A stretch of DNA of 64,000 nt, taken from NCBI GenBank assembly GCA_963682025.1, contig OY821521.1, positions 121,387,383 through 121,451,382 on the forward strand, in the 5' to 3' direction. The notes below the pieces were generated by a model that was not told the origin of the DNA, did not search any database, and saw only the letters and a program-made list of their open reading frames with translations. Numbering within the stretch: position 1 is the stretch's first letter; every line of letters begins with the position of its first letter. The position numbers and the translations under genes are program-made. Source of the DNA: Cordilura impudica (lineage: Eukaryota > Arthropoda > Insecta > Diptera > Scathophagidae). Positions 10,682 through 61,520 of this stretch are shown one piece after another.

Positions 10682-10692
10682 CCTCCCTTTTC
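10682..10692 (-). promoter_or_regulatory. Polypurine tract (plus-strand primer site)
   Basis: Minus-strand GAAAAGGGAGG lies directly against the TGT start of the 3' LTR, which is where plus-strand DNA synthesis is primed in LTR elements. Confidence 0.85.
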
Positions 10693-14700: not shown

Positions 14701-15386
14701 GTCCTATTGTCTCTCTTTTGGTCAGTAACAGGATATATAACATCATACTCGTTTAAATTCTCCGTTTGGATGTTATTAATATTTATCGTCATGTTTTCTT
14801 TGTTAGTATTAAGAATTCTGACATATGCGTTATTGCCTTGAGCCAACGTATTTGCAATGTATACGCCTGGTTTTATTTCTTTGTTCAACACCAGTAGTTC
14901 CTCATGCTGTGTATTAAATTGTATCTTGCGTATTACCTGAGCCCTTGCTGGTATAACGACGTAATCATTATCGTATGTGTGGTGTATCGGAATTGTTAGG
15001 GTTCGAAAATTTTTAGGTCTCATAACAAGACACTCTTTGTTCTCCATGAAATCAATGCTACAATTAAAAGTTTTCAAATAATCCATCCCTATGATTCCGC
15101 TACATGGTATTGGGAAGTCATTGTGTACCACATGAAATTCATGAGGTATTATGAAATCCTCCCTGCAAATTTCCAGATCGGTTGAACCTATTGACTTAAT
15201 GGTTCCTTCGCCTATGCCACTAATCGTTGTTATTTCCCGTTTGTTGATAAAATTATTTTCTCCAAGATTTTCTTTTTTCATCAGACATATGTCTGCTCCT
15301 GTATCCACAAGTAAAACAAGAATTTGTTTTGTATGATAATTGTAAAATTTTACAAACACACCAAAGCTTAAGTTTAATTTATACAT
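11787..15386 (-). pseudogene. pol: 412-like pol (protease, RT, RNase H, integrase), disabled
   Basis: Minus-strand pieces in order: protease at 15386-14649 with VDTGAD (catalytic Asp at residue 28); RT N-terminus at 14594-14307; RT fingers/palm at 14302-14078; RT catalytic region, thumb and RNase H start at 14085-13450; RNase H end plus HHCC zinc finger (GGHSG... CGKCQ) at 13424-12549; and integrase core and C-terminus at 12524-11787, with VDTIGPLP, TDMGTEYKN and VERSHRTFNEY supplying D, D and E and a GPY module at the end. Lesions include adjacent TGA-TAA near 14645, a short deletion and frame change near 14305, further shifts near 14090 and 13450-13560, TAA at about 12549 and TAA at 11910. 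The RT box reads YMHD instead of YMDD. Overall similarity is closest to 412 of Drosophila. Confidence 0.92.
14077..14088 (-). other. Mutated RT active site YMHD
   Basis: The codons TAT ATG CAT GAT encode Tyr-Met-His-Asp where Ty3-gypsy RTs have Tyr-x-Asp-Asp. The first Asp of the pair, which binds catalytic metal, is His (a GAT to CAT change). Confidence 0.85.
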
Positions 15387-15412
15387 ATATATTTTTCTTT
15401 TTCCCCCAGAGT

Positions 15413-16711
15413 CTATTCCTGGTTTTCCGAACCCGTATTGATTGTACTCTCTATTGGTCGGACTTGACGGTCCCGACCTCTATAGTGGTTCGTAAATTGA
15501 TAGTTATGTTCTGTATTTTCCTGTTGTCTTCGATTTCCATTGTTCATATAGTTGTGTCTATTTCTACCTCTGGAATCGTTATTTCCCTTATAGGTACCTT
15601 GGCGTCTTTGGTGCCAATTATTGTCATTATTTCGGAAATTTTTGTTGCCATTGCCATTATATGATCTGTTCTGTTGTCTATAGTACAACACAGTATCTTT
15701 GCTTCCCGTTGTTTCGGTGCATGTTTCAATAAATTTTTGAATAGCTTGGTCTAATGAAGAAAACTGACCCGCTTTCATGATGAGTTTGACATTATCATTG
15801 TTACAATTTGCCACTATAGCATTTACTGCTGCTTTTGTGGTATATTCTTTGGCTGCTGCTGGTGGTACTCCGTCCGAAATGTAGGCATTATGAATCCTTT
15901 TCGCCAAATCTTCTACTTCACTAGTGTATGCGTTGGCCGTTTTATTCCTTTGCTGTATGTTCATAAGCTTGGCAATTAGTCCACCAACAGGTTCGCCTTT
16001 TATTGATCTTTGTAATTTTTCTTTAATTTGTACTATAGTTGTTTCATCTGTGATCCATTGTCGGGCAGTTCCCTTTAGCTTTGTCTTAATAAGTGAAATA
16101 GCTATAATTTCGTGGGCTCCTTTTAGTTGGTCAATCATTATCAGACCATCGATGAAGCTCTGTAGGTTTTTCACGTCTCCATCGTAGTCCGAAATGAATT
16201 TGGACGCAGTATCCACGAATTGTTCCACTGTTTGGGCCATATTTAGTTCCTCTTTTGCTATTACTTTATTGATTACTTCTTCTATAAAATCCTTAACTTG
16301 TTCTCCTTCCGTTTCTGTGTCGCCCTTATCATTTGAATCTTCTTCCTCAATTGTTTCGGGACCTAGTTTAGTACTTATTACGATTATCTTATCTATATTC
16401 AATTTAATATGTTCCGTATAATCGTGCGGTATATTCTCTCTTATACCATATTTGTCATATATTTTCACTAATCTATCTCTTACGTCCCAATATATGTCAA
16501 CTACTATTTTCAAATGCTCTTTCGTATAATCTAGTTTATATTTTGAAACTAGTCTTGCTATGTTATTATAATTTTCTATTAATGTTTTCAAATGTGTCTT
16601 TATGGTATCATCCTTTATATAAGTATTCTTATTGATACATTTATATGACTTCTTGAAGTCTTCATGAAAAAATTTTATGTTGCCTATAACTAGTTCATAT
16701 TTGTCAGTCAT
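15413..16711 (-). CDS. gag: 412-like Gag, intact 432-codon ORF
   Basis: An uninterrupted ORF starts MTDKYELVIGNI and ends with an Asn/Arg/Gly-rich basic tail (RGRNRH, RGRDRQ) that probably binds RNA. No CCHC zinc knuckle is present, as expected for the 412/mdg1 lineage. The middle (residues ~165-330) is helical and includes a PxGGLIAKLM stretch, consistent with the capsid domain. It forms the particle shell and packages element RNA. Pol begins 27 bases past the gag stop in another frame, so pol expression would need frameshifting or reinitiation. It is the longest intact ORF in the element, although partner functions are broken. Confidence 0.85.
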   Translation of the reverse strand: MTDKYELVIGNIKFFHEDFKKSYKCINKNTYIKDDTIKTHLKTLIENYNNIARLVSKYKLDYTKEHLKIVVDIYWDVRDRLVKIYDKYGIRENIPHDYTEHIKLNIDKIIVISTKLGPETIEEEDSNDKGDTETEGEQVKDFIEEVINKVIAKEELNMAQTVEQFVDTASKFISDYDGDVKNLQSFIDGLIMIDQLKGAHEIIAISLIKTKLKGTARQWITDETTIVQIKEKLQRSIKGEPVGGLIAKLMNIQQRNKTANAYTSEVEDLAKRIHNAYISDGVPPAAAKEYTTKAAVNAIVANCNNDNVKLIMKAGQFSSLDQAIQKFIETCTETTGSKDTVLYYRQQNRSYNGNGNKNFRNNDNNWHQRRQGTYKGNNDSRGRNRHNYMNNGNRRQQENTEHNYQFTNHYRGRDRQVRPIESTINTGSENQE

Positions 16712-16852
16712 AATCCCCTATTATCGGTTTTAATGACACTTTACTCGTAATTCTAGGGCCTATATATTTAGTTAGTTTTTGTTGAAAGTATAAAATGCCT
16801 TTTATTCATAAAATATGAAAGCATAAATTTAAATGTAGTGTTAAGAGATTTA

Positions 16853-17092
16853 TTAATTGTCTTCCATTGACTCCGCTCCTTTTGACCTATATCTTTCGGG
16901 TCTATATTCCGGTGGTTTAAAATCTTCCATCCCGTTGGTGAAATATCCCTCTTGGGCTAATCTTAATATTTCTTTATCTACTATATCTAATATTCTTGAA
17001 TGGTTGTCATGTTGTTCCTTAGTAAATGGCGTAAATTCTGGATAGGCTCTGTTCAATTTGGCTTCTATATATTTTCTTGTCCGTCTAGGCAT
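16853..17092 (-). CDS. Leader ORF 2 of the 412-like element (79 aa, unknown role)
   Basis: A small basic/acidic ORF starts MPRRTRKYIEAKLNRAYPEF and ends GAESMEDN. Its ATG overlaps the stop of the preceding leader ORF by 8 bases (17085-17092), an arrangement that fits translation reinitiation. It precedes gag on the same strand. Small ORFs ahead of gag are a known feature of 412; their function is not established. I see no domain in it. Confidence 0.6.
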   Translation of the reverse strand: MPRRTRKYIEAKLNRAYPEFTPFTKEQHDNHSRILDIVDKEILRLAQEGYFTNGMEDFKPPEYRPERYRSKGAESMEDN

Positions 17093-17582
17093 TTTCTTTA
17101 CTCTTTCTTATCTCCTTAATAGTTTTCAATTTTATATTAAGTAATAGGTGTTCTTCCTGTACTTTTGCGTATTCAGGAGTTCCCACTTTGAGTAAATCAA
17201 TTTGTCGCCTCAGGTTCTTCGACTCGCCTCTCATGCGTTTTATAATACCCCCTCTTTTATTTTTCTTTTTTCTAATTTTCGCGTCCTCTGCTATAGGTGT
17301 AATTTTGTCCGCAGTTGAATCCTTAGCAACTTTAATTGTCGGACTACTTATGTTGATATCTATAAAGTCTCGGGGTATAACCTCACAAAAGGTGTCCTCT
17401 CTATGTTCATTTAATTCTTTATTTGAGCCTATGCTGTTAATAATTTTCTTTATAGTCGGAAAACCTATTTTTGGAATAGTTGTCAGTTTGTCCTCTGCTT
17501 TAAGTAATTTTCTATACTCAGGTTGTCTTTTTCTGTATTCCGATATTGTTAGTTTCTTCGGCCCAGATTTATCCTGATCCAT
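17085..17582 (-). CDS. Leader ORF 1 of the 412-like element (~165 aa, unknown role)
   Basis: The frame is open from 17657, but I prefer the internal ATG at 17582 (MDQDKSGPKKL). The upstream extension is a hydrophobic stretch encoded by repeated AT-rich leader DNA. The protein is very basic, with KIRKKKNKRG near residue 100 and a helical C-terminus with Leu/Lys/Glu heptads (possible coiled coil). It is the first ORF of the element and ends overlapping the next small ORF. The role is unknown; nucleic-acid binding is a guess from charge. Confidence 0.6.
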   Translation of the reverse strand: MDQDKSGPKKLTISEYRKRQPEYRKLLKAEDKLTTIPKIGFPTIKKIINSIGSNKELNEHREDTFCEVIPRDFIDINISSPTIKVAKDSTADKITPIAEDAKIRKKKNKRGGIIKRMRGESKNLRRQIDLLKVGTPEYAKVQEEHLLLNIKLKTIKEIRKSKENA

Positions 17583-17599
17583 ATTATTGAATTTTAATT

Positions 17600-17857
17600 G
17601 AAAAAAAAAAGGAAAAACAAACAACCTCACATAAATAACCGAAATTAAAATATTCAAAATATTTAAATAAAATTCTCCTTTAATTAACGATTATTAATAT
17701 TAACAATTATTAATTATTAATGAGTACACAAAAAAGGAAAAACAAAATACCTCATATAAATAACCGAAATTAAAATATTCAAAATATTTAAATAAAATTC
17801 TCATTTAATTAACAATTATTAATATTAACAATTATTAATTATTAATGAGTACACTTT
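17600..17857. repeat. Two ~127-bp tandem copies in the LTR element's leader
   Basis: The block GGAAAAACAAA...CCTCA...ATAAATAACCGAAATT...TTAATGAGTACAC occurs twice in direct order with minor differences, in the 5' untranslated leader. Confidence 0.85.
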
Positions 17858-17867
17858 AAAATAATAT

Positions 17868-18020
17868 GGTTGATTGCAGCGCCTGTGGCCGCGATCTTCC
17901 TTTAAATAAAAAAGATAAATTTAGGTTGATTGCAGCGCTTGTGGCCGCGATCTTCTTTTAATAAAAAAGATAAATTTAGGTTGATTGCAGCGCTTGTGGC
18001 CGCGATCTTCCTTGTTTACA
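17868..18020. repeat. Three ~57-bp tandem copies in the LTR element's leader
   Basis: GGTTGATTGCAGCGC, then TGTGGCCGCGATCTTC and an AT-rich spacer, repeats three times. Each copy contains GGCCGCGATC, a GC-rich palindrome-like core in otherwise AT-rich DNA. Confidence 0.85.
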
Positions 18021-18573
18021 AATTATAAAAACTTTAAAACTAAAACTATAAATACTTATTTATGAGGATGTTGATATTGTTTCGGCATGCTGTGGGCGCC
18101 GTTGTTGTATAGTTGTTGGCATAGTTGTGTCCGCTGTTGTGGTTGCAGGATAATACACTTAATTTTGTTGCTGCTGTTTTCTCTGCTACTGTTGCAGGTA
18201 TTTTGGCCACACCTGTTTCCTCTGTTCACTATTCATTGATATATTGATATTTTTACGAAATATTTTGTTTTTCTTTAAAAGTCTTTTTGTAAATATTACA
18301 CATTTATAGATAATTTATTTATTTTGCAGTTTTTTTTTTAATGTTTATATTAAATTTTCTTTCTCACTGATTCAAATTTTATGTCTGTATTAACAATAAT
18401 CTTTTAATTTTTATTTTATCACGGAACTTTTTAAATGGTGAAATTTTTGTAGTTTTATGAATATCGACACTTTAGTTCATTAAACGTTTCCAATAATAAT
18501 TAATTTAGTATTAAATTATTCTGATTTTTTTTTGCGTCTATTATACGTCATGGGAACAGGACCTTGTGACGTG

Positions 18574-18591
18574 CTCCTGGCAGGATCGCCA
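18574..18591 (-). promoter_or_regulatory. Primer-binding site, tRNA-Arg type
   Basis: The minus strand reads TGGCGATCCTGCCAGGAG directly after the 5' LTR. From memory this is complementary to the 3' 18 bases of an insect tRNA-Arg including CCA, the primer used by 412/mdg1-like elements. Confidence 0.8.
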
Positions 18592-19065
18592 TATAAATGA
18601 AAAATGTCTATATTAAATGAAAATTCAACCAACGTTAAAGTAAAACCACCACTATTGTTGAATGTTTATTAATTATTGATCGTTCTTTATTATTTCATTT
18701 CTTTATATTATTCATTTGTTTACATAGCTTGTTTGGATAGTGTATAAAAAATACCTACTAACAAATACACATAATGACATACATATGATTTCTGTGTGTT
18801 ATACTCTTAATTCATAACACAGCAGAAATCAAGAAAACACGCAACAACAATTGCGTGGTATGGCATGAGTTGTCATTGCACAATACCTTCGCTGTATCGA
18901 CAATTGTTTATACATTAACAGTTCATAGTACAGCGTATGGCCAATGAACTCAAATGTACTTTTATCGTGTCAGCGAATGTTTGTGATTGCACGTATTTTG
19001 GACAATAATATTTATTAGTGACTAAATAAAGTTATCGTCCAATTTATGAATGCAATTATGCTACA
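18592..19065 (-). repeat. 412-like element, 5' LTR
   Basis: Direct repeat of 10206-10681 at about 98% identity by eye. It abuts the primer-binding site on its inner side and AGAT (19066-19069) on its outer side. Confidence 0.95.
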
Positions 19066-28749: not shown

Positions 28750-29110
28750 ACTTGGTGATGTTGTTGTTGTAAATTTGGTGGTCGACGTTGTTGATGTTGA
28801 TATTGTTGTTGTTGACGTTGACGTAGTTGTTGTTGGCGTTGTTGTTGACATTGCTGTTGGTGTTGATCGTGCTGATGTTGTTGATGTGGGTATTGCTGAT
28901 GTTGACGCTGTTGATATTGCTGTTGTTTATGTTGACTTAGTTGTTGTTAAAGTTGTTGTTGACATAGTTGTTGACGTTGTTATTGCTCATATTATTGTTA
29001 TTGGTGTTGTTGTGGAAATTGCTGTTGATATTGATCGTGCTGATGTTGATGTGGGTATTGTTGATGTTGTTTAAATTGTTGTTCAGATTGTTGTTACTAT
29101 TGTTGTTTGA
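28750..29110 (-). repeat. Imperfect (AAC)n tract encoding poly-Asn in a LINE ORF
   Basis: About 360 bases of GTT-rich repeats on the + strand. On the minus strand part of it is read in frame with the LINE C-terminal domain as Asn-rich protein with interspersed Ile, Ser and Thr. Confidence 0.85.
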
Positions 29111-39506: not shown

Positions 39507-40860
39507 TGAATAATAAATAATAAATAATAAATATTTAATAATAAATAATAAATAATAAATAATAAATAATAAATAATAAATAATAAATAATAAATAATAA
39601 ATAATAAATAATAAATAATAATAAATAATAAATAATAAATAATAATAAATAATAAATAATAAATAATAAATAATAAATAATAAATAATAAATAATAAATA
39701 ATAAATAATAAATAATAAATAATAAATAATAAATAATAAATAATAAATAATAAATAATAAATAATAAATAATAAATAATAAATAATAAATAATAAATAAT
39801 AAATAATAAATAATAAATAATAAATAATAAATAATAAATAATAAATAATAAATAATAAATAATAAATAATAAATAATAAATAATAAATAATAAATAATAA
39901 ATAATAAATAATAAATAATAAATAATAAATAATAAATAATAAATAATAAATAATAAATAATAAATAATAAATAATAAATAATAAATAATAAATAATAAAT
40001 AATAAATAATAAATAATAAATAATAAATAATAAATAATAAATAATAAATAATAAATAATAAATAATAAATAATAAATAATAAATAATAAATAATAAATAA
40101 TAAATAATAAATAATAAATAATAAATAATAAATAATAAATAATAAATAATAAATAATAAATAATAAATAATAAATAATAAATAATAAATAATAAATAATA
40201 AATAATAAATAATAAATAATAAATAATAAATAATAAATAATAAATAATAAATAATAAATAATAAATAATAAATAATAAATAATAAATAATAAATAATAAA
40301 TAATAAATAATAAATAATAAATAATAAATAATAAGTAATAAATAATAAATAATAAATAATAAATAATAAATAATAAAAAATAATAAATAATAAATAATAA
40401 ATAATAAATAATAAATAATAAATAATAAATAATAAATAATAAATAATAAATAATAAAAAATAAATAATAAATAATAAATAATAAATAATAAATAATAAAT
40501 AATAAATAATAAATAATAATAAATAATAAATAATAAATAATAAATAATAAATAATAAATAATAAATAAATAATAAATAATAAATAATAAATAATAAATAA
40601 TAAATAATAAATAATAAATAATAAATAATAAATAATAAATAATAAATAATAAATAATTAATAAATAATAAATAATAAATAATAAATAAATAATAAATAAA
40701 TAATAAATAAATAATAAATTATAATAAATAATAAATCAATAATTAATAAATAATAAATAAATAAATAATAAATTTATTATTTAAATGTTTATTATTAAAA
40801 TAAATAATAAATAAATAAATAGTAAATAATAAATCATAAATAATAAATAAATAATAAGTA
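39507..40860. repeat. (TAATAAA)n heptamer array 1, ~1.35 kb
   Basis: An almost uninterrupted 7-base repeat begins right after the PLE end (GAGCCTGAACATTTTATTTTGAATAA, quoted as position about 39488-39512) and degenerates near 40740. It runs into the 5' end of the I-like LINE. Confidence 0.97.
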
Positions 40861-45786: not shown

Positions 45787-47570
45787 GAATAATAAATAGT
45801 AAATAATAAATAATAAATATTTAATAATAAATAATAAATAATAAATAATAAATAATAAATAATAAATAATAAATAATAAATAATAAATAATAAATAATAA
45901 ATAATAAATAATAAATAATAAATAATAAATAATAAATAATAAATAATAAATAATAAATAATAAATAATAAATAATAAATAATAAATAATAAATAATAAAT
46001 AATAAATAATAAATAATAAATAATAAATAATAAATAATAAATAATAAATAATAAATAATAAATAATAAATAATAAATAATAAATAATAAATAATAAATAA
46101 TAAATAATAAATAATAAATAATAAATAATAAATAGTAAATAATAAATAATAAATAATAAATAATAATAAATAATAAATAATAAATAATAAATAATAAATA
46201 ATAAATAATAAATAATAAATAATAAATAATAAATAATAAATAATAAATAATAAATAATAAATAATAAATAATAAATAATAAATAATAAATAATAAATAAT
46301 AAATAATAAATAATAAATAATAAATAATAAATAATAAATAATAAATAATAAATAATAAATAATAAATAATAAATAATAAATAATAAATAATAAATAATAA
46401 ATAATAAATAATAAATAATAAATAATAAATAATAAATAATAAATAATAAATAATAAATAATAAATAATAAATAATAAATAATAAATAATAAATAATAAAT
46501 AATAAATAATAAATAATAAATAATAAATAATAAATAATAAATAATAAATAATAAATAATAAATAATAAATAATAAATAATAAATAATAAATAATAAATAA
46601 TAAATAATAAATAATAAATAATAAATAATAAATAATAAATAATAAATAATAAATAATAAATAATAAATAATAAATAATAAATAATAAATAATAAATAATA
46701 AATAATAAATAATAAATAATAAATAATAAATAATAAATAATAAATAATAAATAATAAATAATAAATAATAAATTATAAATAATAAATAATAAATAATAAA
46801 TAATAAATAATAAATAATAAATAATAAATAATAAATAATAAATAATAAATAATAAATAATAAATAATAAATAATAAATAATAAATAATAAATAATAAATA
46901 ATAAATAATAAATAATAAATAATAAATAATAAATAATAAATAATAAATAATAAATAATAAATAATAAATAATAAATAATAAATAATAAATAATAAATAAT
47001 AAATAATAAATAATAAATAATAAATAATAAATAATAAATAATAAATAATAAATAATAAATAATAAATAATAAATAATAAATAATAAATAATAAATAATAA
47101 ATAATAAATAATAAATAATAAATAATAAATTATAAATAATAAATAATAAATAATAAATAATAAATAATAAATAATAAATAATAAATAAATAATAAATAAT
47201 AAATAATAAATAATAAATAATATATAATAAATAATAAATAATAAATTGTAAATAATAAATAATAAATAATAAATAATAAATAATAAATAATAAATAATAA
47301 GTAATAAATAATAAATAATAAATAATAAATAATAAAAAATAATAAATAATAAATAATAAATAATAAATAATAAATAATAAATAATAAATAATAAATAATA
47401 AATAATAAATAATAAATAATTAATAATTAATAAATAATAAATAATAAATAATAAATAATAAATAATAAATAAATAATAATAAATAATAAATCAATAATTA
47501 ATAAATAATAAATAATAAATAAATAAATAGTAAATAATAAATCATAAATAATAAATAAATAATAAGTATA
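45787..47570. repeat. (TAATAAA)n heptamer array 2, ~1.78 kb
   Basis: The longest heptamer array, directly after PLE copy 2 and before the I-like LINE 5' end. Very few units deviate. Confidence 0.97.
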
Positions 47571-47678: not shown

Positions 47679-47888
47679 ATGAGCAGGGCCCCGCCACCAG
47701 GTGGGGGCAACAAATTTGATGCTTTCCCCCAAGGAAAAAAGATAATGCCGGAAAAATACGATGGATTCCAACCAGGACAACCTTTTAATTCACTAAACAT
47801 TTTTTTATTTAGCAAAGCCCTAAATGGAATGATCTCAGAAAGCTAAAGAAAAATGACAGAATTCACACGAGATGTTAATCTTTTAATA
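47679..47888 (+). pseudogene. I-like LINE unit 2, ORF1 N-terminal part
   Basis: Starts MSRAPPPGGGNKFDAF and continues through PFNSLNIFLFSKALNGMISES to a TAA, then reads on to the hAT target site. Confidence 0.6.
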
Positions 47889-47896
47889 CTTACAAC

Positions 47897-49724
47897 TAAG
47901 GATGAAGCAAAACCATCGATGCTACGAAAACATCGACCCAAAACCATCGAAAAAAATAAGCATCAAATTTTTGTTAATTTTATGTCTGTAATATAAACGA
48001 TTATATTAAACACAAAATTTTTTAATCATTATACCAAAGTTTCGTTAGCAAAGAGCTCAAAAATATTAGTTTTGATGCAAATTTTCCATCCAATTTATTT
48101 CTTGCGTTGCAAATTATTAGACCGACTTTTGAAAAGAACCGCTCGGAAGGCGCCGACGTTGCTGTCGTTGATAAATATATAAGTGCAACTTTAGACAGTA
48201 ATGGATAGGTTGAGGCCATTTCAGTCCAAAACACCAGCGGCTTTTGCCCCATTTTTTCAGCAGGTGCTTCTGAAATTAAAGTAATTTGTAAAAAAAAATA
48301 GTTGAATTGAATGTGGATCATTTATACTTAAGGAAACTTCGGAATGGTTGCTTCTTAATTCATGTTCTGTTGAAGAAGTAGTATTTCTATGCCATATCTT
48401 TTAAATCACTTTGTTGTCATTCTGGCTCTGATTCTTATCTCCAGAATCCGATTCGGAAAAAGTTGCTGAACATGATATGTTCAATGCTTCGTTTTGTTTC
48501 ACAATCCGATCAATCATTTACAAAGTTTCTGTGAGTTGAAGGGGATCTTTGAAGTAAATTGTTTTGAACCGAGGGTCCAAAATTGTTGCCATACTCAACA
48601 GTGAAGAATGTTCAATCCCAACAACTTTTTTTTCCAATTCAACTAATGGTTGCTTTTAAAACTTTAGGCATATATCTTCTTTGGGGTAATTTTTGCATTT
48701 TGTCTTTCAGAATATGAGCAATGGCAATTGGTAGAATACTTGTTAAGTATTGGTCTCCACATATTTCTGTTGTAGCTGTATCCAATGGCTGTAAAATGTT
48801 TACATTTACGGCGCTGATGAATATTCATTTAAAATAATGTTGACAAATGGCCGCAAAGTTCCATCTCGTCAGGCATACTCTGAATCAGCTTTTTGTCAAT
48901 ATTTTTTCTTAGTTGATCACTTGTCACCACACTATGCTTAAACCATTTAACGATTTTCTTTACACGATCAAGGGCGTTCTAAGGCTCGCTGAGCAACTAA
49001 ATTAAGATTGTGCGCAAAGCAGTGTATGTGTTTTTTTTTGGTCGAATGCTAAACGTGCTGCTTTCACTATATTTGCTGCCCCATCGGTGAATATCGCAAC
49101 AAGGTCTTGTGGATCTAATTCCCAATCTGCGCACAGGTTTCTTAATTTATAGGCGAGATATTCAGCCGTGTGCTGATGAAATGAACGGTTGCACTTAAAT
49201 AACTGTGCATCTGGATGTCAGTCCAAGCAACAGTAGTAATTGTAAAATTTTTTTCCCTAAACTTTTCCTTTAAAACATGTTGCATTGCATCAAATTTCTC
49301 GTTGATCATTCTTTTTATAGTGCAACGGCTTGCCACAAAATAGTGAGGCGCATAAACTTTCATAACTCTAAAAAAAGCCCTTTCTTTCCACCGTTCTTAT
49401 GGGTTGCATAACTTGGCATATCATAAAAACAATTGCCTGGATTTTTTTTCGTTTCCTTTGCCTCCATCCTTAAAGTCTTTTATACGAAATGAAATGCCGA
49501 CGTTATAGACTATTGAGAAGGAAATGATGGCAGCTGAAAGGGGTGTTATTTTTTTTTAATATAACGTAACTTCAAAGAGTTAAAATATATATTTTTGAAT
49601 AATATCAATCAAAATCGTCGATGTTAGAAAAAACATCAGACAAAACCATCGATGGCAAAAATATCGAACATCGAATGCAAACCATCGATGTTATGAAAAC
49701 ATCGAACATCGATGCTCACTACTA
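47897..49724 (-). mobile_element. hAT transposon relic, copy 2
   Basis: Same insertion as copy 1, with CTTACAAC at 47889-47896 and 49725-49732. The shared target site shows it was duplicated with the unit rather than inserted anew. Dimerisation piece at about 48321-48022, N-terminal-side piece at 49363-49142. Confidence 0.85.
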
Positions 49725-50491
49725 CTTACAACTACCAAAAGGCAAGCCGAACTAATTATAACAGCAAAAAAACTGTCCAACATATGCGACATCGCATGCT
49801 CGTACCATGATAAATTAAATACCGTCAAAGGTGTAATCTATTGTCCTGAATTAAAAAGTTTAACAGAAGCAGCAATAACCACCGGAATAAGGAAACTCGT
49901 AGATGGTAAGGTAGAAAATACTCCTTTACACATATTATCTTTTGATTTGTATACGCTGCCAAACGAAACTAAAATAGGCTTCCAAAACGTTAAAGTAGAT
50001 TATTACATACCCAAACCAATGCAATGCACATTATGTCATCGTAATGGACATACAAAAAAAAATGCAGAGGTGTTCCCTTGTATAGCACGTGCTCAATGCC
50101 AATCCATACCGAAGAATCACCATGTGAATCAATAAAATGTATAAACTCCAATTATCAGCACAGATCGACAAACAAACAGTGTCCTACGATTTTAAAGAAA
50201 CAAGAAATCATTAAACATTCTACTGTAAACAGAACATCAATAGCAGACTCAACAAAACATGTAAGCACAACTTATTCTTCAGGTCATTTCACAAAAAATA
50301 TACCAATTGAGCATTCTTCAAAATATAATACAACAAATAATTTACAAAAAGAAAAAGAAATTGAAACAACTGAAATAGCAATTATTCAAAACAACAACGT
50401 AAATGAAAACAATAAGAACAAAAAATTAAATCAAAACAACAATCAACAAAACACTCTTGATAAACCAACAAACTTATCTCCCACTAATTGA
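49725..50491 (+). pseudogene. I-like LINE unit 2, ORF1 with CCHC knuckles
   Basis: Frame 49947-50135 has MQCTLCHRNGHTKKN and shifts in the A-run near 50055. Frame 50078-50491 holds the remaining knuckles and the Asn/Gln-rich C-terminus, intact to its stop. Confidence 0.75.
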
Positions 50492-50664
50492 CCTCTCTCA
50501 ACACCAAAATTCAAATGTACTCATCAATAATTTGCAGACAGAACTTCAAGCAGTTCTGAGCAAAACAAACAATAGCTACAATATAAATATGGATATTTAA
50601 AATGAAATAACCCAAGCTAACTGCAGTAAAGATCAAACTCTTATTTTCTTTTCATCCAAATGAA

Positions 50665-51277
50665 AATCTTACAACGGAATATAAATGGTTATAAAAACAA
50701 TTTTGCAAACTTGCAATTATTAAATTCAAAGTATAATTTTGACATAATCATACTGTAGGAAACATATTTCAGCCGATAATAAAGAAAAATCTTTAAGACA
50801 TACTTTCACAATACGCAGTATTCAGACAAACAAGGGATAGCTCTTTTCATCAAAAGCAATATCCCACATAAATACTCCCTTACAAGCGATTCTGGTAATT
50901 TATAAATAGCATTACTGGAAATTAAACTAAATACCAAATTTCTTATACAAAACGTTTATATTCTACCTTGTGGAAAAATGACAAGATCAGTTCTGGAAAA
51001 AAATATTAATATATCAGCACCCAACATCTTAATTCTCGGAGACTTCAATGGTTGGGGTCCGTTATGGGGTTCATCCACAACAAACTGTAGAGGAAAGATC
51101 TTAGAAAACTTTATAAATAACAACAATTTTTGTATACTGAATACTTTCACAACGGTGGATATTTCCTTTCGCAGTCCAAACTTGCTATCTAAACTCCAAT
51201 GGAATGTAGATGATGACCAACATGGCACTGATCACAATCCAATTACAATTGAACTGAATAGTTTTAATAATATATGA
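50665..51277 (+). pseudogene. I-like LINE unit 2, endonuclease fragment
   Basis: As in unit 1: stops in the N-terminal part, then an open frame at 50978-51277 with ILGDFNGWGPLWGS and TDHNPITIE. Confidence 0.8.
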
Positions 51278-51552
51278 AAATGTACACCAAAGTTTAAAAC
51301 AAACAGGGCTAAACTGGCCCTTAAAGTTAAAGAATCTTAAAAAAGACAATCTACATTAAATAAACTTATTTTTCTTTTTTATATTCACATATTAAGATAT
51401 TCGTTATCTTTGGAAAATTATTACCGGACAGTATATTTTTAATTTTATTAATATTTTCCATGTGGAATTCAACGTCACTAATGTTTAAAACCCTTTTTAT
51501 AAGGTTAATAGCAGTATTTATAATCATAATCTTCGGGTGTTTTGAGTAATAA

Positions 51553-52117
51553 TTGATGATTCTGTTGTTTTCCCGAATGACTATTGTAAATCCTAAAATA
51601 TTTAAATCATTGACCTATATTCCGGAATTGTCTGAAAGATTTGAAAAATCAAAATTATTTAATGAAGAAAATTGGAAAATAGCTAATAAAACTAACAACA
51701 CCCTAACAAAACTATACGGAAGCCCTAAAGATAAATTAGATAAATTTGAAAAATCTAACGTCATATATAAAATACCGTGTAATGGCAACGGGCAGGATGA
51801 TTGCAACAAGTTTTACGTAGGTACCACAAAAAATAAACTTAAAACTAGAATAGCACAACACAAATCTCTTCAAAGATTGAAAACCACTACATCTACACAG
51901 AAAACAGCGTTAGTGAACCACTGCATATATGGAAAACATACACCAGATTTTGCTAACGCACAAGTATTACAAAGCGAGAATAATTAATTATAAACGACGT
52001 TTCTCACTAGAGATGCTGCATATTATCAATATTCCAACAAACAAGAGAGTAAATTTTATAGCCGATGTAGAAAGCTGTGCTCAATCGTATCGCCATCTTG
52101 TTAACCAACGATCATAG
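51553..52117 (+). pseudogene. PLE copy 3, linker and GIY-YIG domain
   Basis: The best-preserved copy: one open frame from 51553 to 51987 covers linker, IYKIPC, FYVGTT, RIAQHKSL and VNHCIYGKH. Only the AATT duplication at about 51984 (also in copy 2) causes a stop, after which 51929-52117 completes the domain with SLEMLHI. It lacks the RT, so it could not act alone. Confidence 0.88.
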
Positions 52118-52436
52118 TGCAATACACATTTTTAACTCACTGCAATATTAGACGTGATGGAGACATAGCTAGTAGGTTTAAGCACTATGTTTATTAGATA
52201 TTAATGCAAGAATTTAGTGTGGTTTTTACTTTTTACTGTGTGGTTATTTTGCCTATTGTATATTTTTGTTGTTTTCTAAAATAATGATGTTTGTACTTAC
52301 TTCTTTATTTACATTGTGCATTTCAGAATTATTCCTGATGATGCATTTCAAGGAAAAGCGAAATATTGAATAAATAAAGAATATTTATACAAAACAACTT
52401 AGACTTCGAGCCTGAACATTTTATTTTGAATAATAA

Positions 52437-52811
52437 ATAGTAAATAATAAATAATAAATATTTAATAATAAATAATAAATAATAAATAATAAATAATAAA
52501 TAATAAATAATAAATAATAAATAATAAATAATAAATAATAAATAATAAATAATAAATAATAAATAATAAATAATAAATAATAAATAATAAATAATAAATA
52601 ATTAATAAATAATAAATAATAAATAATAAATAATAAATAATAAATAATAAATAATAAATAATAAATAGTAAATAATAAATAATAAATAATAAATAATAAT
52701 AAATAATAAATAATAAATAATAATAAATAATAAATAATAAATAATAAATAATAAATAATAAATAATAAATAATAAATAATAAATAATAAATAATAAATAA
52801 TAAATAATAAA
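52437..52811. repeat. (TAATAAA)n heptamer array 3a
   Basis: About 375 bases of heptamer repeat, ending where the 496-bp repeat block begins. Confidence 0.95.
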
Positions 52812-52916
52812 TTTTATTATTTTTTATAAAAATAAAAAATCTTATTTTCGATCTTTATCAATTTAATGATTGAGTTTGAAATTGTTCAGGCTCAAGATCA
52901 AATGTTTTTACTTTAA
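52812..52916 (-). repeat. Inverted copy of the 496-bp repeat's end
   Basis: About 85-95 bases are the reverse complement of the segment that joins successive 496-bp units (for example 53327-53412). The array therefore starts with an inverted end, a structure often seen at PLE insertions. Confidence 0.85.
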
Positions 52917-53215
52917 ATAATTTTTATAAAAAATAATAAAATTAAAAATACGGAGGGCACGCCGTTAACGCTAAATGTAAGTTTAGCAAAAACAAATTGT
53001 TTTTCTTGTTTTTTTTTTTTTTCAAGACAAAAACAAACATGTATATTGTAGTATGCAATGTGTACTCGTATACAATCATATTTGTTTCAAAGTTGTTCTA
53101 TTTTTAGTTTGTTATATTGGAAGAGGCTTAAATAGTATAACTTTTGCTTGAATTCTCATTTGGTTGTTTTCAGCAAATATATATGAATTTAACTTTTTAC
53201 CAAACAAACTATCTA

Positions 53216-53280
53216 CTGCTTTTGGTTACTGATGAGGGTTGGTGACTCTTCCCGAAACAGCTGTATAACCTGTCATGCAG
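53216..53280 (+). ncRNA. Hammerhead ribozyme motif, repeat 1
   Basis: All invariant parts are present: stem I GGTTA (53224-53228) with TAACC (53266-53270), extended by CTGC/GCAG; core CTGATGA (53229-53235); stem II GGG...CCC; GAAA (53254-53257); stem III ACAG/CTGT without a loop; cleavage expected after A at 53265. Such tiny stem III forms are known from PLE-associated hammerheads and may work as dimers. Confidence 0.8.
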
Positions 53281-53711
53281 AATATACATAGATCAATTTT
53301 TTGAAACAAATGTGCTAATGCTTTTACTTTATTTAAAGTAAAAACATTTGATCTTGAGCCTGAACAATTTCAAACTCAATCATTAAATTGATAAAGATCG
53401 AAAATAAGATTTTTTATTTTTATAAAAAATAATAAAATTAAAAATACGGAGGGCACGCCGTTAACGCTAAATGTAAGTTTAGCAAAAACAAATTGTTTTT
53501 CTTGTTTTTTTTTTTTTTCAAGACAAAAACAAACATGTATATTGTAGTATGCAATGTGTACTCGTATACAATCATATTTGTTTCAAAGTTGTTCTATTTT
53601 TAGTTTGTTATATTGGAAGAGGCTTAAATAGTATAACTTTTGCTTGAATTCTCATTTGGTTGTTTTCAGCAAATATATATGAATTTAACTTTTTACCAAA
53701 CAAACTATCTA

Positions 53712-53776
53712 CTGCTTTTGGTTACTGATGAGGGTTGGTGACTCTTCCCGAAACAGCTGTATAACCTGTCATGCAG
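53712..53776 (+). ncRNA. Hammerhead ribozyme motif, repeat 2
   Basis: Same 65 bases as in repeat 1, 496 bases downstream; all core residues unchanged. Confidence 0.8.
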
Positions 53777-54205
53777 AATATACATAGATCAATTTTTTGA
53801 AACAAATGTGCTAATGCTTTTACTTTATTTAAAGTAAAAACATTTGATCTTGAGCCTGAACAATTTCAAACTCAATCATTAAATTGATAAAGATCGAAAA
53901 TAAGATTTTTTATTTTTATAAAAAATAATAAAATTAAAAATACGGAGGGCACGCCGTTAACGCTAAATGTAAGTTTAGCAAAAACAAATTGTTTTTCTTG
54001 TTTTTTTTTTTTCAAGACAAAAACAAACATGTATATTGTAGTATGCAATGTGTACTCGTATACAATCATATTTGTTTCAAAGTTGTTCTATTTTTAGTTT
54101 GTTATATTGGAAGAGGCTTAAATAGTATAACTTTTGCTTGAATTCTCATTTGGTTGTTTTCAGCAAATATATATGAATTTAACTTTTTACCAAACAAACT
54201 ATCTA

Positions 54206-54270
54206 CTGCTTTTGGTTACTGATGAGGGTTGGTGACTCTTCCCGAAACAGCTGTATAACCTGTCATGCAG
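54206..54270 (+). ncRNA. Hammerhead ribozyme motif, repeat 3
   Basis: Same 65 bases, 494 bases downstream of the previous motif; core unchanged. Confidence 0.8.
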
Positions 54271-54701
54271 AATATACATAGATCAATTTTTTGAAACAAA
54301 TGTGCTAATGCTTTTACTTTATTTAAAGTAAAAACATTTGATCTTGAGCCTGAACAATTTCAAACTCAATCATTAAATTGATAAAGATCGAAAATAAGAT
54401 TTTTTATTTTTATAAAAAATAATAAAATTAAAAATACGGAGGGCACGCCGTTAACGCTAAATGTAAGTTTAGCAAAAACAAATTGTTTTTCTTGTTTTTT
54501 TTTTTTTTCAAGACAAAAACAAACATGTATATTGTAGTATGCAATGTGTACTCGTATACAATCATATTTGTTTCAAAGTTGTTCTATTTTTAGTTTGTTA
54601 TATTGGAAGAGGCTTAAATAGTATAACTTTTGCTTGAATTCTCATTTGGTTGTTTTCAGCAAATATATATGAATTTAACTTTTTACCAAACAAACTATCT
54701 A

Positions 54702-54766
54702 CTGCTTTTGGTTACTGATGAGGGTTGGTGACTCTTCCCGAAACAGCTGTATAACCTGTCATGCAG
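54702..54766 (+). ncRNA. Hammerhead ribozyme motif, repeat 4
   Basis: Same 65 bases, 496 bases downstream of the previous motif; core unchanged. Confidence 0.8.
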
Positions 54767-55198
54767 AATATACATAGATCAATTTTTTGAAACAAATGTG
54801 CTAATGCTTTTACTTTATTTAAAGTATAAACATTTGATCTTGAGCCTGAACAATTTCAAACTCAATCATTAAATTGATAAAGATCGAAAATAAGATTTTT
54901 TATTTTTATAAAAAATAATAAAATTAAAAATACGGAGGGCACGCCGTTAACGCTAAATGTAAGTTTAGCAAAAACAAATTGTTTTTCTTGTTTTTTTTTT
55001 TTTTTCAAGACAAAAACAAACATGTATATTGTAGTATGCAATGTGTACTCGTATACAATCATATTTGTTTCAAAGTTGTTCTATTTTTAGTTTGTTATAT
55101 TGGAAGAGGCTTAAATAGTATAACTTTTGCTTGAATTCTCATTTGGTTGTTTTCAGCAAATATATATGAATTTAACTTTTTACCAAACAAACTATCTA

Positions 55199-55263
55199 CT
55201 GCTTTTGGTTACTGATGAGGGTTGGTGACTCTTCCCGAAACAGCTGTATAACCTGTCATGCAG
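55199..55263 (+). ncRNA. Hammerhead ribozyme motif, repeat 5
   Basis: Same 65 bases, 497 bases downstream of the previous motif; core unchanged. About 100 bases later the unit ends directly in the heptamer array. Confidence 0.8.
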
Positions 55264-55362
55264 AATATACATAGATCAATTTTTTGAAACAAATGTGCTA
55301 ATGCTTTTACTTTATTTAAAGTAAAAACATTTGATCTTGAGCCTGAACAATTTCAAACTCAA

Positions 55363-56905
55363 TAAATAATAAATAATAAATAATAAATAATAAATAATAA
55401 ATAATAAATAATAAATAATAAATAATAAATAATAAATAATAAATAATAAATAATAAATAATAAATAATAAATAATAAATAATAAATAATAAATAATAAAT
55501 AATAAATAATAAATAATAAATAATAAATAATAAATAATAAATAATAAATAATAAATAATAAATAATAAATAATAAATAATAAATAATAAATAATAAATAA
55601 TAAATAATAAATAATAAATAATAAATAATAAATAATAAATAATAAATAATAAATAATAAATAATAAATAATAAATAATAAATAATAAATAATAAATAATA
55701 AATAATAAATAATAAATAATAAATAATAAATAATAAATAATAAATAATAAATAATAAATAATAAATAATAAATAATAAATAATAAATAATAAATAATAAA
55801 TAATAAATAATAAATAATAAATAATAAATAATAAATAATAAATAATAAATAATAAATAATAAATAATAAATAATAAATAATAAATAATAAATAATAAATA
55901 ATAAATAATAAATAATAAATAATAAATAATAAATAATAAATAATAAATAATAAATAATAAATAATAAATAATAAATAATAAATAATAAATAATAAATAAT
56001 AAATAATAAATAATAAATAATAAATAATAAATAATAAATAATAAATAATAAATAATAAATAATAAATAATAAATAATAAATAATAAATAATAAATAATAA
56101 ATAATAAATAATAAATAATAAATAATAAATAATAAATAATAAATAATAAATAATAAATAATAAATAATAAATAATAAATAATAAATAATAAATAATAAAT
56201 AATAAATAATAAATAATAAATAATAAATAATAAATAATAAATAATAAATAATAAATAATAAATAATAAATAATAAATAATAAATAATAAATAATAAATAA
56301 TAAATAATAAATAATAAATAATAAATAATAAATAATAAATAATAAATAATAAATAATAAATAATAAATAATAAATAATAAATAATAAATAATAAATAATA
56401 AATAATAAATAATAAATAATAAATAATAAATAATAAATAATAAATAATAAATAATAAATAATAAATAATAAATAATAAATAATAAATAATAAATAATAAA
56501 TAATAAATAATAAATAATAAATAATAAATAATAAATAATAAATAATAAATAATAAATAATAAATAATAAATAATAAATAATAAATAATAAATAATAAATA
56601 ATAAATAATAAATAATAAATAATAAATAATAAATAATAAATAATAAATAATAAATAATAAATAATAAATAATAAATAATAAATAATAAATAATAAATAAT
56701 AAATAATAAATAATAAATAATAAATAATAAATAATAAATAATAAATAATAAATAATAAATAATAAATAATAAATAATAAATAATAAATAAAAAATAATAA
56801 ATAATAAATAATAAATAATAAATAAATAATAAATAATAAATCAATAATTAATAAATAATAAATAAATAAATAGTAAATAATAAATCATAAATAATAAATA
56901 AATAA
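55363..56905. repeat. (TAATAAA)n heptamer array 3b, ~1.54 kb
   Basis: Starts at CTCAATAAATAATAAA, directly joined to the fifth 496-bp unit. A 510-codon minus-strand frame through it is only a by-product of the 7-base period. Confidence 0.97.
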
Positions 56906-57021
56906 TAAGTATATTCAGTTGTGTTTTTATAAAACAGCGCGTTTAAAAATGTGATATATTCCTCTTTTATTATATTTTTGTTTTTACCTGCACGCATTGC
57001 ATATATAAACAAGTATCGACA

Positions 57022-57231
57022 ATGAGCAGGGCCCCGCCACCAGGCGGGGGCAACAAATTTGATGCTTTCCCCCAAGGAAAAAAGATAATGCCGGAAAAAT
57101 ACGATGGATTCCAACCAGAACAACCTTTTAATTCACTAAACATTTTTTTATTTAGCAAAGCCCTAAATGGAATGATCTCAGAAAGCTAAAGAAAAATGAC
57201 AGAATTCACACGAGATGTTAATCTTTTAATA
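57022..57231 (+). pseudogene. I-like LINE unit 3, ORF1 N-terminal part
   Basis: As in unit 2: starts MSRAPPPGGGNKFDAF, has a TAA after GMISES, and runs up to the hAT target site. Confidence 0.6.
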
Positions 57232-57239
57232 CTTACAAC

Positions 57240-59051
57240 TAAGGATGAAGCAAAACCATCGATGCTACGAAAACATCGACCCAAAACCATCGAAAAAAAT
57301 AAGCATCAAATTTTTGTTAATTTTATGTCTGTAATATAAACGATTATATTAAACACAAAATTTTTTAATCATTATACCAAAGTTTCGTTAGCAAAGAGCT
57401 CAAAAATATTAGTTTTGATGCAAATTTTCCGTCCAATTTATTTCTTGCGTTGCAAATTATTAGACCGACTTTTGAAAAGAACCGCCGGAAGGCGCCGACG
57501 TTGCTGTCGTTGATAAATATATAAGTGCAACTTTAGACAGTAATGGATAGGTTGAGGCCATTTCAGTCCAAAACACCAGCGGCTTTTGCCCCATTTTTTC
57601 AGCAGGTGCTTCTGAAATTAAAGTAATTTGTAAAAAAAAAATAGTTGAATTGAATGTGGATCATTTATACTTAAGGAAACTTCGGAATGGTTGCTTCTTA
57701 ATTCGTGTTCTGTTGAAGAAGTAGTATTTCTATGCCATATCTTTTAAATCACTTTGTTGTCATTCTGGCTCTGATTCTTATCTCCAGAATCCGATTCGGA
57801 AAAAGTTGCTGAACATGATATGTTCAATGCTTCGTTTTGTTTCACAATCCGATCAATCATTTACAAAGTTTCTGTGAGTTGAAGGGGATCTTTGAAGTAA
57901 ATTGTTTTGAACCGAGGGTCCAAAATTGTTGCCATACTCAACAGTGAAGAATGTTCAATCCCAACAATTTTTTTTTCCAATTCAACTAATGGTTGCTTTT
58001 AAAACTTTAGGCATATATCTTCTTTGGGGTAATTTTTGCATTTTGTCTTTCAGAATATGAGCAATGGCAATTGGTAGAATACTTGTTAAGTATTGGTCTC
58101 CACATATTTCTGTTGTAGCTGTATCCAATGGCTGTAAAATGTTTACATTTATGGCGCTGATGAATATTCATTTAAAATAATGTTGACAAATGGCCGCAAA
58201 GTTCCATCTCGTCAGGCATACTCTGAATCAGCTTTTTGTCAATATTTTTTCTTAGTTGATCACTTGTCACCATTTAACGATTTTCTTTACACGATCAAGG
58301 GCGTTCTAAGGCTCGCTCAGCAACTAAATTAAGATTGTGCGCAAAGCAGTGTATGTGTTTTTTTTGGTCGAATGCTAAACGTGCTGCTTTCACTATATTT
58401 GCTGCCCCATCGGTGAATATCGCAACAAGGTCTTGTGGATCTAATTCCCAATCTGCGCACAGGTTTCTTAATTTATAGGCGAGATATTCAGCCGTGTGCT
58501 GATGAAATGAACGGTTGCACTCAAATAACTGTGCATCTGGATGTCAGTCCAAGCAACAGTAGTAATTGTAAAATTTTTTTCCCTAAACTTTTCCTTTAAA
58601 ACATGTTGCATTGCATCAAATTTCTCGTTGATCATTCTTTTTATAGTGCAACGGCTTGCCACAAAATAGTGAGGCGCATAAACTTTCATAACTCTAAAAA
58701 AAACCCTTTCTTTCCACCGTTCTTATGGGTTGCATAACTTGGCATATCATAAAAACAATTGTCTGGATTTTTTTTTCGTTTCCTTTGCCTCCATCCTTAA
58801 AGTCTTTTATACGAAATGAAATGCCGACGTTATAGACTGTTGAGAAGGAAATGATGGCAGCTGAAAGGGGTGTTATTTTTTTTTAATATAACGTAACTTC
58901 AAAGAGTTAAAATATATATTTTTGAATAATATCAATCAAAATCGTCGATGTTAGAAAAAACATCAGACAAAACCATCGATGGCAAAAATATCGAACATCG
59001 AATGCAAACCATCGATGTTATGAAAACATCGAACATAGATGCTCACTACTA
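57240..59051 (-). mobile_element. hAT transposon relic, copy 3
   Basis: CTTACAAC at 57232-57239 and 59052-59059. It differs from copies 1 and 2 by small deletions (for example near 57484 and 58270). N-terminal-side piece at 58689-58468. Confidence 0.85.
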
Positions 59052-59819
59052 CTTACAACTACCAAAAGGCAAGCCGAACTAATTATAACAGCAAAAAAAC
59101 TGTCCAACATATGCGACATCGCATGCTCGTACCATGATAAATTAGATACCGTCAAAGGTGTAATCTATTGTCCTGAATTAAAAAGTTTAACAGAAGCAGC
59201 AATAACCACCGGAATAAGGAAACTCGTAGATGGTAAGGTAGAAAATACTCCTTTACACATATTATCTTTTGATTTGTATACGCTGCCAAACGAAACTAAA
59301 ATAGGCTTCCAAAACGTTAAAGTAGATTATTACATACCCAAACCAATGCAATGCACATTATGTCATCGTAATGGACATACAAAAAAAAAATGCAGAGGTG
59401 TTCCCTTGTATAGCACGTGCTCAATGCCAATCCATACCGAAGAATCACCATGTGAATCAATAAAATGTATAAACTCCAATTATCAGCACAGATCGACAAA
59501 CAAACAGTGTCCTACGATTTTAAAGAAACAAGAAATCATTAAACATTCTACTGTAAACAGAACATCAATAGCAGACTCAACAAAACATGTAAGCACAACT
59601 TATTCTTCAGGTCATTTCACAAAAAATATACCAATTGAGCATTCTTCAAAATATAATACAACAAATAATTTACAAAAAGAAAAAGAAATTGAAACAACTG
59701 AAATAGCAATTATTCAAAACAACAACGTAAATGAAAACAATAAGAACAAACAACTAAATCAAAACAACAATCAACAAAACACTCTTGATAAACCAACAAA
59801 CTTATCTCCCACTAATTGA
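59052..59819 (+). pseudogene. I-like LINE unit 3, ORF1 with three CCHC-type knuckles, longest open copy
   Basis: Frame 59274-59819 is open for 181 codons. It contains CTLCHRNGHTKKKC, a CSMPIHTEESPC-type second finger and CINSNYQHRSTNKQC, followed by an Asn/Gln-rich tail. The preceding part (59070-59273) is in the same frame and lacks a start because of the hAT insertion. This Gag-like protein would bind LINE RNA. Confidence 0.78.
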
Positions 59820-59989
59820 CCTCTCTCAACACCAAAATTCAAATGTACTCATCAATAATTTGCAGACAGAACTTCAAGCAGTTCTGAGCAAAACAAACAA
59901 TAGCTACAATATAAATATGGATATTTAAAATGAAATAACCCAAGCTAACTGCAGTAAAGATCAAACCCTTATTTTCTTTTCATCCAAAT

Positions 59990-60605
59990 GAAAATCTTAC
60001 AATGGAATATAAATGGTTATAAAAACAATTTTGCGAACTTGCAATTATTAAATTCAAAGTATAATTTTGACATAATCGTACTGTAGGAAACATATTTCAG
60101 CCGATAATAAAGAAAAATCTTTAAGACATACTTTCACAATACGCAGTATTCAGACAAACAAGGGATAGCTCTTTTCATCAAAAGCAATATCCCACATAAA
60201 TACTCCCTTACAAGCGATTCTGGTAATTTATAAATAGCATTACTGGAAATTAAACTAAATACCAAATTTCTTATACAAAACGTTTATATTCTACCTTGTG
60301 GAAAAATGACAAGATCAGTTCTGGAAAAAAATATTAATATATCAGCACCCAACATCTTAATACTCGGAGACTTCAATGGTTGGGGTCCGTTATGGGGTTC
60401 ATCCGCAACAAACTGTAGAGGAAAGATCTTAGAAAACTTTATAAATAACAACAATTTTTGTATACTGAATACTTTCACAACGGTGGATATTTCCTTTCGC
60501 AGTCCAAACTTGCTATCTAAACTCCAATGGAATGTAGATGATGACCAACATGGCACTGATCACAATCCAATTACAATTGAACTGAATAGTTTTAATAATA
60601 TATGA
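59990..60605 (+). pseudogene. I-like LINE unit 3, endonuclease fragment
   Basis: As in units 1 and 2: stops in the N-terminal part, open frame 60306-60605 with ILGDFNGWGPLWGS and TDHNPITIE. Confidence 0.8.
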
Positions 60606-61520
60606 AAATGTACACCAAAGTTTAAAACAAACAGGGCTAAACTGGCCCTTAAAGTTAAAGAATCTTAAAAAAGACAATCTACATCAAATATTAATAAAGA
60701 AGCTGCACTAGTAACAAAATCAATATTGACGGCTACAAATAAAATCATTCCAGTTAGTCCTCAACATAAAAAAACATGCAATACCTATTAGTGGAATAAA
60801 GATTTGAGTGAATTACGAACAAAAAAATGTTATTATGGAAATATAGTAAGTCCGATTTATTCTGGCCAATATTATCCAATACAAGAAACTTAATGCTCTT
60901 TTCAGGAAGAAGATAAAAGAAGCCAAGTTCCAAGCATACAAAGAATTAACTTTCAGCAACAACTCAAATTCAAAAAATATGACAAACTGATAAACCATCA
61001 ACCTTACAATATATCCGGGCTCTGAAGAAATAGATCAATCACAACTGATTCCCAAGCTATTGTCAATTTACTTACCGAAAATTTTGCTAGTACATCATCA
61101 AACGCTAACTTCGAAACACATTTTCTCAATTGCAAGCATCTTGCAATAAATTCCGAATACAAACCGACAAAACTAACCAAATCCGACAGGGAAATATAAA
61201 AACCTTTATTCGAATTTGAACTCACACTTAAAAAACAAAGGATAGTAGCCCATGTTGCGACAAAATATCTTACTCAATGATAAAAAATTCATCAAATGTT
61301 TTTAAATCGCGTTTACTGAAACTGCTTAATGAAATATTTTTTAGCGGTGTTATACCACATAATTGGAAAAATGCCGATGTTATCTGCATACTAAAACCAA
61401 ACAAAAAGAAAGAGCATATTAGTTCATATCGACCGATATCCTTAATATCATGTTTAAGTAAAATGTTAGAGAAAATGGTAGCTGAAAGGTTATCGTGGTT
61501 TATCTCTCCAAATATCGTTT
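60606..61520 (+). pseudogene. I-like LINE, continuation into reverse transcriptase
   Basis: Only unit 3 keeps this part. Linker sequence with shifts (60690-61270) leads to 61277-61520, which reads LLKLLNEIFFSGVIPHNWK, ADVICILKPNK and SSYRPISLISCLSKMLEKM, the first RT motifs of I-type LINEs. It stops at about 61520, where a minus-strand Jockey fragment begins. Confidence 0.78.

Follow-up and report, generated by a model that had tools for sequence, protein, structure and literature searches.

A five-unit tandem hammerhead repeat in the fly Cordilura impudica and its probable origin as a retrozyme-type insertion

A stretch of 64,000 nucleotides of genomic DNA from the fly Cordilura impudica (contig OY821521.1, positions 121,387,383–121,451,382 of the forward strand; hereafter the window) contains a tandem array of five units of about 496 bp, each of which carries a type I hammerhead core. 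The hammerhead repeat is real. We read it as a non-autonomous element of the metazoan retrozyme type that a reverse transcriptase acting in trans, plausibly a Penelope-like one, copied once from RNA in circular or multimeric form, and we give this reading a probability of about two in three. The element adds to a kind already known: insect repeats with hammerheads of the dimer type, mosquito included, are already in print. Among the literature matches listed, there is no description of this array nor of any muscid repeat with a type I hammerhead.

Tandem units and hammerhead cores

TRF delimits a tandem array at 52920–55363 (period 496, 4.9 copies, matches 99%), which TRF and BLAST together resolve into plus-strand units in a plain head-to-tail layout. 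Units 1 (52920–53415) and 2 (53416–53911) are 496 bp long and identical in sequence. Comparison of the units shows that unit 3 (53912–54405) is 494 bp long with a T tract shorter by 2, and that unit 4 (54406–54901) is 496 bp long with a single A-to-T substitution. Unit 5 (54902–55363) has a T tract longer by 1 and, as read at the junction, is truncated at the right, 115 nt past its own predicted ribozyme cut. The differences between units thus comprise one substitution and T-tract length only, and each is private to one unit.

An ORF search with a minimum of 30 aa found ATG ORFs of at most 32 aa on the plus strand and 66 aa on the minus strand of the element. The ATG within CTGATGA opens 19 codons as counted by eye, a frame that lies below the 30-aa minimum and is too short to test. 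Tandem non-coding units that each bear a type I hammerhead are a trait of metazoan non-LTR retrozymes, and here five such units carry five cores.

All five units share the same 47-nt block (GGTTA-CTGATGA-GGG(12)CCC-GAAACAGCTGTA-TAACC), which occurs on the plus strand only. A motif scan places the cores at 53224–53270, 53720–53766, 54214–54260, 54710–54756 and 55207–55253, with predicted cuts after A53265, A53761, A54255, A54751 and A55248, respectively, i.e. at spacings of 496, 494, 496 and 497 nt. We then scanned for the full motif, defined as the core CTGANGA/GAAA/TH together with Watson–Crick stems I (5 bp), II (3 bp) and III (2 bp). In the window this motif has exactly five sites, all on the plus strand and none on the minus strand; in 300 simulated first-order Markov windows of equal size, scanned on both strands, it has none. 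The five sites count as one independent occurrence because all are copies of one unit.

The invariant core and the paired stems I, II and III of a type I hammerhead are present in five of five units, and the hand criteria reported in PMC3088659 (core-adjacent pairs and H17) also hold for the five cores. A preliminary description of this DNA had claimed five tandem repeats of about 496 bp with a hammerhead in each, and all invariant hammerhead bases in all five; the first claim is borne out by TRF, BLAST and the motif scan, and the second by the identical 47-nt cores and the full-motif scan. The loop-free 4-bp ACAG/CTGT stem III that it had drawn is impossible within one molecule. In cis, stem III has at most 2 bp (A–U and C–G), closed by a loop of AGCU; its palindrome of 8 nt, ACAGCUGU, reaches full 8-bp pairing only between two copies. 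A stem I extension (CUGC/GCAG and AUCUA/UAGAU) is also seen in folding; it may be due to chance and we make no claim on it.

A block in one of three heptamer arrays

The array lies in a triplicated locus: by BLAST, 41134–45787 matches 47772–52428, and 47559–51362 matches 56902–60690. Three head-to-tail copies of a 6–9 kb segment, roughly 97–99% identical, occupy 38453–60690, each with an AATAATA heptamer array. Over the longest alignment of each copy pair, substitution rates are 0.54% (first versus second copy), 0.58% (second versus third) and 0.73% (first versus third), and two shorter flank alignments have 0.85–0.86% substitutions.

Every segment copy also contains a CCHC-knuckle LINE ORF1 remnant (at 42962, 49599 and 58926), and the third copy, to which the scan was limited, contains the start of an endonuclease domain as well as a hAT transposase remnant on the other strand. 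We considered a telomeric LINE array, which we presumed to be comparable to HeT-A, for the three 6–9 kb repeats and set it aside; the LINE ORF1, the endonuclease start and the hAT remnant of the third copy fit ordinary duplication. The LINE ORF at 58926–59819 has its best named match, fourth of five, in Haematobia, and another LINE ORF at 5991–7535 is best matched in Haematobia irritans (56% identity), with Stomoxys calcitrans as the next named source. Two further repeat features lie elsewhere in the window. At 10206–19065, two direct repeats of 476 bp with 97.7% identity flank minus-strand ORFs with an integrase zinc-binding domain; this looks like an LTR retrotransposon, which we take to be of the Gypsy kind. 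At 28787–29071, TRF finds degenerate repeats of 12–24 bases, GTTGTTGAT in type, which show a higher-order period of 114 bases.

The direct units are adjoined on their left by an inverted arm. A repeat search finds 111 nt at 52810–52920, on the minus strand, that are the reverse complement of the unit region 53329–53439, with 100% complementarity to units 1–3 and 99% to unit 4. Because this arm adjoins the direct array, we treat the element as one block of ~2.55 kb, at about 52810–55363, with the arm as its left end; such an inverted left terminus is a trait of Penelope-like elements (PLEs). Neither end of the block coincides with a ribozyme cut. Measured as distance past the cut position, the left arm begins at 174 and descends to 64, and the first direct unit starts at about 151; the start of the left arm and that of the right end (at 115) are 59 nt apart.

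TRF and variant parsing place the heptamer array that received the block at 52429–52812 (left part) and 55361–56901 (right part). Both parts are in the same 7-base phase, i.e. the phase is unbroken across the block, and a 3-nt AAT is common to element and target at both block ends. Since the phase is continuous and the AAT is shared at both ends, the target is offset by a net 0 nt or by some multiple of 7; since the target is itself a heptamer repeat, a target-site duplication is not recognizable.

The sister arrays A (39509–40850, first copy) and B (45788–47558, second copy) lack the block, and BLAST finds no unit match in either of the two. Their variant strings can be aligned with that of the third copy, which reads ...[4]ATA[3]ATA[12] up to the block; array A reads ATA[3]ATA[98] and array B reads [4]ATA[86]. 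At the variant-matched run, 98 and 86 heptamers are therefore uninterrupted in A and B, respectively. This matching of runs rests on few shared variants because heptamer arrays change length fast. From these alignments, the block appears to be an insertion into the third copy, with an empty site, as expected of a mobile element, in both of the two sister arrays; clean loss from both other copies would be a less simple alternative. The preliminary description had placed the feature at 52917–55362. This agrees with the direct array, and its cores and tandem units stand, but the element also takes in the inverted arm, which was overlooked, as were the insertion of the block among heptamers and the lack of a block at both sister sites.

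About seven substitutions would be expected in the element since the duplication that separates the second and third copies (by our own arithmetic, which applies one half of the 0.58% rate to ~2.55 kb), versus one seen. The block thus looks younger than the duplication on sequence divergence, and homogenization could also explain the few differences.

Proposed mechanism and relation to known elements

From the observed features (i.e. five near-identical units with the motif, an inverted arm, two sister arrays that lack the block, and ends away from the cut) we infer a mechanism in six steps: (i) the array would be transcribed along the plus strand; (ii) the hammerheads of neighbouring units would pair via ACAGCUGU, and their cleavage of the RNA would release 496-nt units; (iii) a host ligase would circularize these units; (iv) a reverse transcriptase supplied in trans, plausibly Penelope-like, would nick AT-rich DNA and start inside the RNA instead of at its 3' end; (v) the circle would be copied about five times (or an uncut multimer would be copied), and a short second cDNA primed on the other strand would yield the inverted arm; and (vi) both cDNAs would be joined to give the ~2.55-kb block in the heptamer array. 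A trans-acting enzyme would be needed because the element has no ATG ORF above 66 aa. No PLE reverse transcriptase was recognized in 10 ORFs of the window and in the six frames of 56902–60690, and a LINE could be the mobilizer instead.

The template would be a circle or an uncut multimer and not a cut linear monomer, because neither end is at the cut site and the block joins 4.9 units, unless recombination added units later. For the PLE of Anolis, PMC11167929 describes hammerhead mutants that left insertion unaffected, uncut RNA as the seemingly main substrate in vitro and 0 RNA-seq reads starting or ending at the cut. By analogy, these results would favour an uncut multimer over a circle as the template here, if a PLE was responsible.

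Several PLE traits appear to match the block in kind. According to section 3 of PMC11167929, both strands are cut at AT-rich ATT motifs and extended, and reverse transcription starts internally, in a stem-loop past the hammerhead; PMC3846280 describes inverted 5' pseudo-LTRs (pLTRs) and palindromes at the inverted junction. The block resembles the pLTRs of these two sources in having a hammerhead in repeated termini, an inverted left terminal piece and an AT-rich target, and its end positions suggest that reverse transcription likewise started inside the RNA past the cut (cf. PMC11167929). The exact offsets do not match: the PLE 'tail' measures 30–40 bp (PMC11167929 and PMC3846280) versus 59 nt between the two starts here. 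In its most specific form, our reading would make the block the record of a single transposition, in which a Penelope-type enzyme nicked both strands of the heptamer array, two cDNAs were begun in one 496-nt hammerhead circle, about five rounds were completed on one strand and the products were joined at a hairpin, with the two paralogous sites left empty. We propose this version only tentatively, as it seems to us rather less probable than its negation.

A PLE could alternatively be the direct source of the units, each unit being the pLTR of an autonomous PLE whose ORF is missing here and whose own hammerhead is retained. We consider this unlikely. PLE hammerheads are of type I with a minimal helix III (PMC7761336, section 8), an inverted 5' pLTR is possible in PLE inserts (PMC3846280), and the right end, ~115 nt past the cut, is near the roughly 85–92 nt of the Anolis PLE (our arithmetic, 111–118 minus 26, from PMC11167929); the ATG in CTGATGA with its 19 open codons would also fit. 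However, an autonomous element would hardly be expected to leave five consecutive copies without an ORF, and the 32-aa and 66-aa limits hold for the whole element, which in contrast to a PLE has no RT/GIY-YIG ORF.

Tandem arrays often expand by unequal exchange or replication slippage, and the locus could be a plain satellite in which one unit or a dimer was inserted and then amplified to five by these processes, the hammerhead being incidental. The near-identity of the units also fits recent amplification or homogenization, and hammerhead repeats of newts and cave crickets have been termed satellites (PMC6155905 and PMC2837043). The count of just 4.9 copies, the unit-private differences, the inverted arm at one end only and the truncated last unit argue against such a history and, while not decisive, lead us to regard it as improbable.

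The cave-cricket repeat, the pDo500 satellite of Dolichopoda (PMC2837043), is similar in being an insect tandem repeat with a unit of roughly 500 bp and one hammerhead each, and both single and double hammerhead forms have been proposed for it. By contrast, it is described as making up about 5% of the D. schiavazzii genome versus the five units seen here, and in its double form it is stems I and II that pair across copies, whereas stems III and I would do so here.

The comparison with retrozymes made in the preliminary description also holds up. The metazoan non-LTR retrozymes described by Cervera and de la Pena (2020, PMC7229834) share with our element a type I hammerhead in AT-rich tandem units and a predicted circle that is highly self-paired; insects are listed among their hosts, and PLEs are proposed as their mobilizers. 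Our element differs in its 8-nt palindromic stem III, the visible empty sister sites and the inverted arm. Its 496-bp unit also falls outside the 150–450 bp given in the Results of that paper, the Discussion of which mentions circles of 150 to over 1000 nt; we hence treat the 496 bp as a difference in size.

Within Diptera, the repeat-type hammerheads of Aedes aegypti (Perreault et al. 2011, PMC3088659) are similar as repeat-associated motifs with a palindromic stem/loop III and a proposed dimer action. They are described as interspersed repeats, a difference that we draw from the descriptions only, and the RNA did not cleave when assayed (PMC3088659). More generally, metazoan repeats often carry a weak helix III, which works in dimers (PMC7761336, section 8). 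Hammerheads are also described from other dipteran genomes, including a muscid one (Musca domestica; PMC7936874), but those are of type III and of the kind found in HDV-like agents, whereas the core here opens via stem I (type I).

Predicted folding, ribozyme activity and implications

Fold energies, which exclude tertiary contacts, place the hammerhead well above the minimum free energy (MFE): −9.5 versus −18.8 kcal/mol for the cis fold and −33.9 versus −44.0 kcal/mol for the two-copy fold. The region 53195–53305 folds no better than its shuffles (z = −0.85; 34 of 200 equally good). The preliminary description had envisaged that transcripts of such an array would yield unit-length RNAs able to circularize. 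The fold energies argue against easy cleavage of a monomer, and because of both results cleavage may be weak or protein-dependent. According to section 3 of PMC11167929, the hammerhead of the Anolis PLE cuts only with its own protein present.

In the RNA of a unit, an alternative hairpin, GGUUACUGAU/GUUGGUGACU (e.g. at 53224–53247), overlies the hammerhead core, and it recurs, whole or in part, in the best predicted folds of the single, paired and circular RNA. On these models, the hairpin could keep the ribozyme off in the circle.

The circular 496-nt unit has a predicted energy of −116 kcal/mol (z = −6.7, 0 of 60 shuffles as low). A rerun with 30 shuffles gave z = −6.9, and 30 other windows, some of them overlapping, had a mean of −0.9 and a lowest value of −5.75, none being as low. 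This strong predicted fold is no more than compatible with expression as linear and circular RNA. In the predicted circle, a small 4-bp hairpin (AUCA/UGAU) has the right end of the element in its 5' strand, and 2 nt separate the inner end of the inverted arm from the loop of another hairpin, of 9 bp.

The preliminary description had set a covariance match to the Rfam hammerhead models as its test and had named the absence of one as a refutation. Rfam returned no hammerhead family at the gathering threshold, nor any hammerhead at E up to 10 on either 3401 nt or 111 nt; the weak matches, all below gathering, were PreQ1 (3401 nt) and SNORD112, JPX_2, SNORD48 and SNORD65 (111 nt). We do not take this as a refutation, because the manual criteria hold for the cores and because a palindrome in stem III, here ACAGCUGU, is a feature of the known dimer class. 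The miss is perhaps due to the palindromic, weak stem III of this dimer-prone class.

Both the Rfam result and the alternative hairpin over the core in the best folds would also fit a dead fossil, i.e. a mobile repeat with a ribozyme that no longer works. With five identical cores, all invariant bases intact and a block that appears younger than the duplication, we judge this quite improbable.

A bare string match, for its part, is no proof of a ribozyme, because 13 loci in viral contigs, several of them mutual copies, hold the exact CTGATGA...GAAACAGCTGTA string without ribozyme stems (prokaryote genome contigs have 0 matches for the 37-base string). It is nevertheless very improbable that our element is an unrelated repeat that resembles the hammerhead core by chance, given its stems I of 5 bp and II of 3 bp versus none of the 13 loci with a stem I of at least 2 bp and a longest stem II of 2 bp, and given the absence of sites from the 300 simulated windows.

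Circles of metazoan retrozymes are known, and PLEs are only proposed as their helper in the Discussion of PMC7229834 and in section 8 of PMC7761336. With a retrozyme-type origin as our preferred reading, a seemingly young insert that retains its two junctions and an inverted arm, and whose sister sites are both empty, makes the insertion event unusually readable. It offers predictions for such elements, namely that copying starts at positions beyond the cut, that the nicks are at ATT/AAT and that multimers derive from one circle. If the block does record a single transposition, it would tie metazoan retrozymes to the PLE machinery, a connection that has hitherto been a hypothesis in the literature.
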